This document shows, in pieces, positions 11,405 through 50,781 of a DNA stretch of 64,000 bases; the first letter of the stretch is position 1, and every line of letters begins with the position of its first letter. Location: positions 186,001-250,000 of the forward strand of contig JAUSCD010000035.1 of NCBI GenBank assembly GCA_030651695.1, written 5' to 3'. A program made the position numbers and the translations under genes. The notes beneath the pieces were generated by a model. The model was not told where the DNA came from, ran no database searches, and worked only from the letters and a program-made list of their open reading frames with translations. Source of the DNA: Pseudohongiella sp. (GTDB lineage Bacteria; Pseudomonadota; Gammaproteobacteria; Pseudomonadales; Pseudohongiellaceae).

Positions 11405-11505
11405 AGGGTTGGATGCCACCTGTGCAGCGGGGCACGAGCGAGGAACAATAAGGCGCGAAGCGCCGTTCCGAGGAATGCCCCGCTGCACAGGTAGCATCCA
11501 TCCCT
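11405..11505. repeat. Fold-back element with 30-bp inverted arms (28/30 identical)
   Basis: The left arm is 11405-11434 and the right arm 11476-11505. The arms match at 28 of 30 positions when one is reverse-complemented. The 41-base core nests two further stems: GGAAC/GTTCC and GGCGC-GAA-GCGCC. The whole can fold into one long hairpin. It sits between the convergent ends of the phosphopantetheinyl transferase and secF, 46 bases after the former's stop. It may serve as a bidirectional terminator or mRNA-end structure. Its core differs from that of the elements at 16.2, 16.7, 31.1, 50.3 and 50.5 kb. Confidence 0.8.
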
Positions 11506-16180: not shown

Positions 16181-16297
16181 GCGGCGCGGTGGGGGATTAG
16201 CGCTTCAGGACACGCCCGTGAATCCATCCCTGGAGGGCTCGGCGGCGGACGTCGTGTCCGCCGACGGTCCTTCAGCGCTATTCCCCCACCACGCCGC
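16181..16297. repeat. Fold-back element with shared GGCGGAC...GTCCGCC core (copy A)
   Basis: The arms at 16181-16210 and 16268-16297 match at 26 of 30 positions as an inverted repeat. The core contains CACGCCCGTGAATCCATCCC followed by the stem GGCGGAC-GTCGT-GTCCGCC. The same core, in one or other orientation, recurs at about 16.7, 31.1, 50.3 and 50.5 kb. Copy A lies upstream of tgt. Its arm sequence is related to that of copy B, which lies in the opposite orientation 370 bases away, so this pair may have arisen by local inverted duplication. Fragments of it appear in the translated frames as Arg-rich pseudo-proteins, which were not annotated. Confidence 0.85.
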
Positions 16298-16396
16298 TAC
16301 CCTCTGTGCCGCGTCGGTTGGGGTTGTGCACTTCGTAAGCGGATGTGCCCGTTATTCTAACTATTACATTCTTTTTTCTGGCAGCTACCGTACCTG

Positions 16397-16459
16397 CTCT
16401 CAGCTCTCAGCTCTCAGCTCTCAGCTCTCAGCTCTCAGCTCTCAGCTCTCAGCTCTCAG
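16397..16459. repeat. Heptanucleotide tandem repeat (CAGCTCT), eight full copies plus partial ends
   Basis: Eight perfect copies of the 7-bp unit run from 16401 to 16456, with CTCT before and CAG after continuing the pattern, so nearly nine units in all. The unit length is not a multiple of three and no gene is supported across it. It lies between the two oppositely oriented fold-back elements in the prfC-tgt gap. Such perfect short arrays are prone to copy-number change by replication slippage and would make a strain-typing marker. Confidence 0.95.
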
Positions 16460-16666: not shown

Positions 16667-16789
16667 GCGCCGGGGTGCCGGGGGGATAGCGCTGAAGGAC
16701 CGTCGGCGGACACGACGTCCGCCGCCGAGCCCTACAGGGACGTACTTGCGGGCGTGTCCTGAAGCACTATCCCCCCGGCATCCCGGCGC
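16667..16789. repeat. Fold-back element with shared core (copy B, inverted relative to A)
   Basis: The inverted arms at 16667-16699 and 16757-16789 match at about 29 of 33 positions. The core contains GGCGGAC-ACGAC-GTCCGCC and GCCGAGCCCTACAGGGACG, ending in GGGCGTGTCC. This is the reverse orientation of copy A. The inner part of the arm (GGGGGATAGCGCTGAAGGA) is shared with A; the outer part is not. It starts or ends 26 bases beyond the prfC stop codon, so it is likely to be transcribed as the end of the prfC mRNA. Confidence 0.85.
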
Positions 16790-30790: not shown

Positions 30791-30807
30791 TTTTTGGTTT
30801 GAGGTAA

Positions 30808-30889
30808 GGGGCCTTCCACTGTGAATCAGGGGGAGGCCCCTCCGCTGTTCGCGTCGCTCGCATCCCCCTGCTCCACAGCCGAAGACCCT
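30808..30889. repeat. Fold-back element G, 30-bp imperfect inverted arms (23/30)
   Basis: The arms at 30808-30837 and 30860-30889 match at 23 of 30 positions when reverse-complemented, including an exact CAGGGGGA block. The 22-base core reads CCCTCCGCTGTTCGCGTCGC plus TC and does not match the GGCGGAC family. It begins 17 bases after the stop of the methyltransferase-like gene. It may be an older, decayed relative of the other fold-back elements, and could act as a terminator. Confidence 0.6.
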
Positions 30890-31103
30890 GCCCACCACCA
30901 GTGCCACATCAGCTCTTGCTGAACTGCAGCGCCATGCGCACTTGTCTGAAGAACACACAACCCCGACACCTGTGCCAGTTTCAACCGAACTACTGCCGCA
31001 AGGTGCAGTTGCTGCCAACACCACCTCGCTTGGAAGACTATCGGCACGCGGGGTCGATGCCAATTATTCGATGTTTGAAGGGACTAAGTTGACCAGCAAT
31101 CGA
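30890..31103. other. Unassigned stretch between two fold-back elements
   Basis: No recognised gene. An open plus-strand frame runs through 30890-31208 (including STELLPQGAVAANTTSLGRL) but lacks an ATG start and runs straight into element C, so it is more likely a chance frame or a gene remnant than an active gene. With the elements on either side, this forms the 469-base convergent gap between the methyltransferase-like gene and ctaA. Confidence 0.4.
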
Positions 31104-31225
31104 GGGAGCGGCAGTCGAGACTATTGGTCAGAGGGAGCCTCGGCGGACAGGACGTCCGCCGCGGAGCCCCACATGGATGTGCTCGTGGGCGTCTCCCGTA
31201 ACCAATAGTCTCGACTGCCGCTCCC
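31104..31225. repeat. Fold-back element C with perfect 25-bp inverted arms and shared core
   Basis: The arms at 31104-31128 and 31201-31225 are identical at 25 of 25 positions as an inverted repeat (GGGAGCGGCAGTCGAGACTA and so on). The core carries GGCGGAC-AGGAC-GTCCGCC, then GAGCCCCACATGGATGTG and GTGGGCGTCTCC, the same core as at 16.2, 16.7, 50.3 and 50.5 kb. The arm sequence is unrelated to those copies. It ends 34 bases beyond the ctaA stop codon. Confidence 0.9.
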
Positions 31226-31259
31226 GGATGCCAAGAACAAGCCAACCTGACAAAAAGAA

Positions 31260-50266: not shown

Positions 50267-50307
50267 CCAGTCGGAATCCGCGTCCGGGTAGAGGCGGATT
50301 GTTTTCA

Positions 50308-50423
50308 GGAGACGCCCACAAGCACATCCATGTGGGGCTCCGCGGCAGACACAGTCTGACCGCCATGGATGGCGGGAATGCCGGTTTTGCAGGAGCAAAA
50401 ACCGGCCTGTCCGCCGAGGCTCC
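50308..50423. repeat. Composite fold-back element D (shared core interrupted by extra hairpins)
   Basis: The element has the ends GGAGACGCCCACAAGCACAT...GGCTCC and the core pieces GCTCCGCGGCAGAC and CTGTCCGCCGAGGC, as in the other copies. The loop of the core stem is replaced by extra hairpins: CCGCC-ATGGAT-GGCGG, and GCCGGTTTTGC paired with GCAAAAACCGGC. The outer arms are weak. It begins 41 bases after the stop of the quinone oxidoreductase gene. It may be an element into which another hairpin inserted. Confidence 0.7.
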
Positions 50424-50502
50424 TTCAATCAGCCAGCCTTGCCCCGGGCGCTCTTTGCCAGCAAATATGCAGTGGTAGTCAGTGGTAAATCGATGGCACG
50501 TA

Positions 50503-50621
50503 GCCCCCGGTGTGTGGGGTGTTGGTTGCGGGTGCGTCGGGGGACAGGACGTCCGCCGCCGAGCCCCCCCCGGTTGGGTTCACGGGCGTCTCCAGCAACC
50601 AACACCCCACACACCGGGGGC
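50503..50621. repeat. Fold-back element E with perfect 27-bp inverted arms and shared core
   Basis: The arms at 50503-50529 and 50595-50621 are identical at 27 of 27 positions as an inverted repeat (GCCCCCGGTGTGTGGGGTGT and so on). The core carries GACAGGACGTCCGCCGCCGA, GAGCCCCCCCCGG and CACGGGCGTCTCC, matching copies A-D. The arm sequence is unrelated to that of the other copies. It lies 79 bases after copy D and 160 bases before the acyl-CoA ligase start. Confidence 0.92.
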
Positions 50622-50708
50622 GGAGCCTGCCAAAAGCAACCGCTCCAAACCAACAGTCATTTAGACTGAGCATACGCTCTCCCGACACAGAACGCAGGTC
50701 AAACGCCC

Positions 50709-50736
50709 TTGATTCCCGATTGTGTCAACGTATAAT
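50709..50736 (+). promoter_or_regulatory. Sigma-70-type promoter of the acyl-CoA ligase gene
   Basis: TTGATT at 50709-50714 and a perfect TATAAT at 50731-50736 are separated by 16 bases. A start point near 50743 would give a leader of about 40 bases before the ATG at 50782. It lies downstream of fold-back elements D and E, so the ligase has its own promoter. Confidence 0.75.
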
Positions 50737-50781
50737 GCGGCTCTTTCGTAATCCGACTGTCCACCGGAAAGCACAAAAACT

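Follow-up and report, generated by a model that had tools for sequence, protein, structure and literature searches.

By analogy, the nearest precedent for the repeat described here is the REPIN. In the part of the report by Bertels and Rainey (2011; PMC3116915) drawn on here, REPINs are REP doublets that form hairpins, with a variable middle in which compensatory changes are common. Our repeat resembles them in consisting of short, dispersed extragenic units with a long hairpin and an inverted arrangement, and in having a part where length and pairing outweigh sequence, as seen here in arm length and in pairing within versus between copies. It differs in that REPINs are conserved at their ends, whereas this repeat is conserved in its tip and weakly at its ends; in that no RAYT link was found (30 Y1_Tnp loci and the genomes of genus g8, see below); and in a tip carrying two GGA hairpins. 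The initial annotation of the locus had known of no named element family with a shared core and arms private to each copy. This was too strong, as REPINs are reported with a variable, length-constrained and compensating hairpin (PMC3116915).

The GTAG/CGTC-tagged REPs and TIRYT elements, as presented in excerpts of Di Nocera (2013; PMC3733652), are likewise intergenic palindromes lying near gene ends and forming dimers. Some TIRYT/REP elements adjoin degenerate REPs to unrelated stem-loops, and long TIRs unrelated to each other are mentioned for such elements in the same excerpts. The present repeat differs in having copy-specific arms of about 27 bp around a common tip, and a GTAG/CTAC tag in a minority of copies (24 of 115). 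Perfect stems and two-sided changes are also features of hairpins made by template switching which, according to the portion of PMC8794818 used here, can create and maintain perfect RNA-hairpin stems; this is a mutation mechanism and not a repeat family.

No description of the present family was recognised among the papers listed in searches of the open-licence PubMed Central literature. Repeat families are usually recognised by common sequence. Here fold and stem length are kept and much of the unit is unrelated between copies, so that repeat finders relying on alignment would pick up mainly the tip. With this family, many natural replicates are available for studying how long perfect stems arise and persist, be it by selection, template switching or exchange.

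A common core between copy-specific arms

The window, that is, the whole stretch of 64,000 nucleotides analysed, contains five copies of the common core (core I), each found by the core model (R1) with E below 1e-14. This agrees with the original proposal that the core at 50503-50621 recurs at four other loci in the window. The features are as follows.

50494-50499, + strand: TGGCAC motif left of the 50503 arm, read from the sequence; the motif occurs in a minority of copies
50503-50529, + strand: left arm of the 50503 copy, 27/27 complementary to 50595-50621
50531-50593, + strand: core I (tip) of the 50503 copy, two hairpins; model R1, 75.7 bits
50595-50621, + strand: right arm of the 50503 copy, reverse complement of the left arm
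50308-50423, - strand: partner core I copy; model R1, 69.3 bits; an insert lengthens hairpin 1
31104-31128, + strand: left arm of the 31104 copy, 25/25 complementary to 31201-31225
31134-31196, + strand: core I of the 31104 copy; model R1, 89.4 bits; loops CAGGACG and CATGGATG
31201-31225, + strand: right arm of the 31104 copy, 25/25 complementary to the left arm
16208-16270, - strand: core I copy; model R1, 88 bits; forms a -+ pair with the 16697 copy
About 16181-16207 and 16271-16297: arms of the 16208 copy, 23/27 paired
16697-16759, + strand: core I copy; model R1, 85.6 bits
16667-16696 and 16760-16789: arms of the 16697 copy, 26/30 paired

The sequence bears out the perfect 27/27 arms first noticed at 50503-50621, as well as the perfect 25/25 arms at 31104-31225, which are unrelated in sequence to the former. 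Perfection does not extend to the 50308 copy, whose arms have decayed to 18/28 paired positions. At a tolerance of 3 mismatches, the 3.86-Mb genome contains the 50503 arm at no sites other than the two within this copy. Both perfect copies fold as a single long hairpin on either strand, with z scores of -6.5 and -5.7 (50503) and -10.6 and -10.3 (31104). Hairpin 1 of the 50503 copy retains GGA; hairpin 2, judging from the sequence, has lost it.

Scanning the window for inverted repeats of at least 16 nt and at most 200 nt apart yielded five pairs: three belonging to the core I family, one flanking a second, unrelated core at 11405-11505, and one 16-nt palindrome. A search with the exact core pattern at up to 3 mismatches gave 8 matches against a shuffle mean of 3.4, a weak test as 3 of 100 shuffles also reached 8. 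Between the 16208 and 16697 copies lies an array of nine perfect 7-base GCTCTCA units (16396-16459). Lengthened cores like that at 50308-50423 are also found at L013:1442-1555, L015:1501-1613, L027:1507-1617 and L129:258-371; in these, hairpin 1 is extended by an insert of some 50 nt that brings in two hairpins with CATGGATG and CAGGAGC on the opposite strand.

Distribution and genomic context

A covariance model built from 16 cores matches at least 72 of 119 genomes of the bacterial family, in 6 of 8 genera (E≤0.01), and at least 13 places in the source Pseudohongiella-type genome; owing to the stricter filters used, with no more than 44 candidates scored per genome, genome-wide core I counts are lower bounds. 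Detailed analysis started from 133 model matches in 89 sources, some regions having been chosen because they held pairs. Dropping 9 matches (6 duplicates of the same place and 3 partial) left 124 distinct copies. Flank counts refer to 115 copies (those short of flank left out), mismatch counts to 112 (weak-arm copies left out) and loop counts to 115 cores (lengthened cores left out).

Neighbouring copies are arranged "-+" in 34 of 34 pairs, 95-518 nt apart, in a sample in which some regions were chosen for holding pairs. In 34 of the 41 copies scored, out of 51 loci, the right-hand neighbour of the folded strand (defined below) is a gene whose 3' end faces the copy, neighbours being ORFs of at least 100 aa rather than annotated genes. 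The claim that every copy lies near a gene end is to this extent upheld.

A first contig pattern search gave no match, nor did the plasmids and phages searched. The second contig pattern search returned 8 stretches, three of which (L034, L035 and L039) are the core I repeat; on reading, the other five look like chance matches. Many contigs of genome G029 have one end no more than a few bases away from a core (L174, L176-L179, L181, L184, L189), and contig ends near a core are also seen at G064:C32 and G021:C24, which suggests that core I hairpins break assemblies or sequencing. G029 also contains another repeat of about 85 nt (L234:1029-1115, equivalent to G029:C17:51029-51115), with many 79-97% matches in the same and related genomes.

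Fold of the tip and of the arms

The tip is predicted to combine two hairpins with a short helix that closes it. In the tip helices, 98.7% of cells are paired and two-sided changes outnumber one-sided changes 350 to 6, a level attained in 0 of 500 shuffles, the alignment being one fitted to the structure. A plain MAFFT alignment of 16 cores still gives two-sided changes in 10 of 14 pairs.

Arm mismatches were scored on the strand reading the core as GGAG..CTCC. On this strand, 129 mismatches are G.T and 24 are A.C (112 copies). After removal of similar arms, the mid-arm figures are 70 and 10 (71 copies), or 37 versus 5 when counted by copy (sign test, p=4e-7). Since the two types are expected in equal numbers in the absence of a strand effect, the asymmetry points to folding of the GGAG..CTCC strand, which is probably the folded one, as RNA or single-stranded DNA. 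The strand exposing GGA in the loops is the same strand.

Arm length falls between 26 and 30 nt in 74 of the 115 copies with enough flank. Mean complementarity between the arms of one copy is 0.83 in G000, 0.87 in G029, 0.89 in G077 and 0.78 in G074, against 0.54, 0.51, 0.54 and 0.54, respectively, for arms from different copies; between-copy values reach the within-copy median in 1/156, 0/380, 0/756 and 16/342 cases. The initial view that arms pair within a copy and are unrelated between copies thus stands for most copies and fails for some in G074 and G077. Arm privacy is a matter of degree because arms are related among different copies in G074 and for a few copies in G077; the sharing of arms among many copies, named at the outset as fatal to the templated fold-back idea, was encountered solely with some copies of these two genomes. 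In G074, two copies have common arms (0.96) and cores at 0.70. Some copies carry decayed arms. As arms are near random between most copies, the terminal inverted repeats common to the copies of a MITE are not seen.

Copies with identical cores also have mostly unrelated arms. Among paralogues with cores at least 95% identical, left arms agree at 12/27 positions or fewer in 27 of 46 pairs and at 15/27 or fewer in 37 of 46. In seven same-locus pairs, arms are identical at 20-27 of 27 positions and cores at 60/64 or better in six and 52/65 in one, arms and cores diverging at similarly low rates; two further pairs in this comparison are of doubtful orthology. In the pair with the 52/65 core (L133/L129), the arms are kept at 26/27 and 25/27.

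We consider it somewhat probable that this is a REPIN-like repeat, dispersed in the genome and preserved as a folded single strand with a length of some 120 nt or slightly more. A stem of around 27 bp, nearly fixed in length and free in sequence, would carry the tip with its GGA loops. The arms would look private because only their pairing and length are constrained, and they may be the product of ancient divergence or of wholesale replacement; selection or inter-copy exchange may keep the tips similar. The account draws on observed features, namely the anatomy, the tip covariation, the arm length, the strand asymmetry of mismatches, the "-+" pairs and the change of tip inside kept arms. It is seemingly the fold that is conserved, as opposed to an insertion duplicating adjacent sequence. 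The element would act by presenting a hairpin, RNA being a likelier form than single-stranded DNA. Several findings count against this explanation. Same-locus pairs show similarly low divergence in arms and cores, yet paralogues with near-identical cores mostly have quite dissimilar arms; one-sided intermediates are scarce in the tip helices; promoter-like sites are not enriched upstream of the folded strand (see below), and spacers between neighbouring copies can be as short as 95 nt, which leaves little room for a promoter; the folded strand is usually antisense to the adjacent gene (34/41); a strand preference would equally be expected of enzymes that bind single-stranded DNA; and the outer motifs occur in a minority of copies.

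The GGA loops and CsrA/RsmA

CsrA/RsmA may be the ligand of the two GGA loops. A stronger functional claim, compatible with the REPIN-like explanation, would make the transcribed folded strand a decoy RNA whose two GGA loops, set on a rigid stem, capture a CsrA dimer, with the scattered copies serving as sponges or as marks on transcripts. We regard this as possible, if on the unlikely side. In its favour, GGA is present in both hairpin loops of the folded strand in 107 of 115 cores, CANGGANG is the sequence of hairpin 2 in 110 of 115, and 20-23 nt separate the two GGA in the 105 cores in which the position of each could be assigned. According to the sections used of the respective papers, CANGGANG hexaloops are high-affinity CsrA/RsmE sites with a best spacing of about 18 nt (PMC4894983), and ANGGAN in hairpin loops is the RsmA-family motif (PMC3791407). 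The agreement between the GGA-loop strand and the strand favoured by the arm mismatches speaks for the same reading; the presence of csrA in 110 of 119 genomes is permissive and uninformative.

On the other side, a scan for a sigma-70-like consensus upstream of the folded strand showed no enrichment (2 versus 4 of 122 at a score of at least 9), and the antisense orientation noted above counts against a transcribed decoy, as does the lack of GGA in hairpin 2 of the 50503 copy. The inserts of lengthened copies put their hairpins on the opposite strand. Genomes G069 and G072 (at least 28-40 core matches; 88% and 81% complete) gave no csrA match. Rfam produced 0 matches in the window at gathering score; with E up to 10, hits were mostly to microRNA families, along with RsmY at 10.3 bits, far under the cut-offs. 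The repeat resembles CsrB/RsmZ-type sRNAs in its GGA-bearing hairpin loops, in CANGGANG and in the similar spacing of paired sites (excerpts of PMC4894983 and PMC3791407). Those sRNAs are encoded by one or few genes with their own promoter, whereas core I occurs as many short dispersed copies in which the sigma-70-like scan revealed no such promoter. Should CsrA/RsmA indeed bind the GGA loops, a global regulator would be under the influence of dispersed repeats.

Outer motifs and mobility

Beyond the arms, 36 of 115 copies have GGCAC some 40 nt to the left of the core (4.1 in shuffles; 4 on the right side), and 37 of 115 have CG[GA]AG some 32 nt to its right (5.8 in shuffles). CTAC, which is GTAG on the other strand, occurs right of the arm at +25 to +44 in 24 of 115 copies, against 8.0 in shuffles and 4 on the left. 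A sigma-54-like reading of TGGCAC was dropped by eye. Because the GGCAC and CG[GA]AG motifs stand at a near-constant distance and arm length is near-fixed, we infer that the arms are internal to the repeat unit. The motifs differ between left and right and occur in a minority of copies, and so do not amount to the two inverted conserved REP ends of a REPIN.

The repeat could also be a single-stranded DNA element moved strand-specifically by an HUH or similar enzyme, present or lost, with the hairpin as substrate. We rate this as rather unlikely. Several observations would suit it: the strand asymmetry of arm mismatches, the CTAC excess, the dispersal in inverted pairs as in REPIN and BIME, and a difference in presence between near-identical flanks in G064 and G083 (see below). 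TnpA_REP works on one strand of folded single-stranded DNA, and a strand preference is also expected of such DNA-binding enzymes (part of PMC8266576). Against it, none of 30 Y1_Tnp loci drawn from a longer list contains core I within about 1.5 kb on each side where the contig allows. In genus g8, 10 of 11 genomes have no Y1_Tnp among the matches listed, and 9 of those 10 have core matches numbering at least 3 to 44. A RAYT-flanked element was rejected on these two grounds, which also make upkeep of the repeat appear to proceed without a linked RAYT transposase.

A second core in the same design

The fourth inverted-repeat pair of the window encloses a different core.

11405-11505, + strand: second design; 30-nt arms, 28/30 paired, enclosing core II (about 11435-11475)

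Core II reads GAGCGAGGAACAAT..GTTCCGAGGA and is unrelated to core I, in the same arm-core-arm design. In relatives, arms of 10-27 nt flank it in 20 of 21 loci examined; the core II loci (window 11405-11505; L260, L261, L267-L293) include same-locus copies from different species. Its arms are less private, because 11 of 20 have a common inner GGG[GA]CAT; GGCAC lies left of the arm in 5 of 20. Core II matches 10 of 119 genomes (E≤0.01), mostly Pseudohongiella-type species with few core I copies. Six genomes (G001, G002, G004, G005, G006, G011) have 2-8 core II and 0-2 core I matches, and five (G003, G007, G012, G013, G014) have 0-2 core II and 9-16 core I matches. The source genome has 3 and 13, respectively; G008, G009 and G010 have no core II and 2-4 core I matches.

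These data raise the prospect of modular structured repeats, with stems of similar length and mostly copy-specific sequence carrying interchangeable tips, at least two of them unrelated within one genus and mostly in different species; the dispersed double-GGA tip would titrate CsrA/RsmA, and each new copy would receive a newly made perfect stem. We think such a scheme unlikely, and the inner segment common to core II arms makes it slightly less probable.

Orthologous and empty sites

The initial annotation envisaged that a core, upon landing, has the adjacent host sequence copied in inverted orientation on its other side, so that an empty site should carry one arm. The gap corresponding to 50267-50781 measures 6-162 bp in G001, G002, G004, G006, G008, G009, G010, G011 and G013 and is copy-free by reading (the G013 anchors being weak); in G003, G012 and G014 it holds other copies. 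The G005 stretch (L135) reaches the contig end and was excluded. G007 (L131) retains one arm as the remnant of a copy that G014 and G003 possess, as would be expected either of a one-armed site or after a deletion. At locus 30791-31259, 6 of 14 congeners keep the left neighbour and a short gap, and 8 of 14 have another left neighbour. In none of the 13 + 14 orthologous loci does any stretch match a window arm more closely than the top-scoring one of 60 shuffled arms does, congener matches being mostly about 65-81% identical, so that old arm traces could be lost.

A closer comparison is afforded by G064 and G083, whose alleles differ by a whole arm-core-arm unit between flanks identical at 186/191 and 242/248 positions. 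Neither arm is present in the G083 allele where G064 has the unit. A target-site duplication was looked for in this one allele pair, and only TGG was found at both junctions. G083 may have lost the unit by deletion rather than never having had it. At another site, G083 has a "-+" pair where G064 (and by reading also G080) has a hybrid joined inside two cores.

The G007 remnant aside, the one-armed empty site was not borne out, and templated fold-back of the host flank finds no support in the 27 orthologous loci or the near-identical G064/G083 pair. Copying of adjacent host DNA by a landing core is further opposed by the outer motifs beyond the arms in a minority of copies, by the near-fixed arm length and by the locus at which arms were kept while the core differed (L133/L129).

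In a broader version, new perfect arms would be made at the birth of a copy by fold-back or template switching, from the flank or from other sequence. Since same-locus arms are stable and paralogues with similar cores differ in theirs, slow drift alone fits poorly, and arms may be birth-made. The perfect 27-bp arms, the two-sided tip changes with few intermediates and the one-armed G007 remnant lend themselves to this reading, and template switching, able to create or repair perfect stems (part of PMC8794818), is a candidate source of new arms. The same orthologous loci and G083 allele argue against it, however, as do the outer motifs and the near-fixed arm length; the G.T excess, too, bespeaks mismatches tolerated stepwise on one strand. 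We hold it to be improbable.

That the copies are ordinary intrinsic transcription terminators is hardly credible, in spite of strong hairpins positioned behind stop codons: no T-run follows either arm in the two window copies read (50503 and 31104), the tip is conserved with covariation, and the folded strand mostly runs antisense to the gene next to it.

In G060 (L238), the gap orthologous to a G029 copy contains an inverted pair of the GTGGGAGCGGGC..GCCCGCGA type, resembling a Pseudomonas REP. Half of this pair is also found left of the G029 copy, and a related one occurs in G080 (L246).
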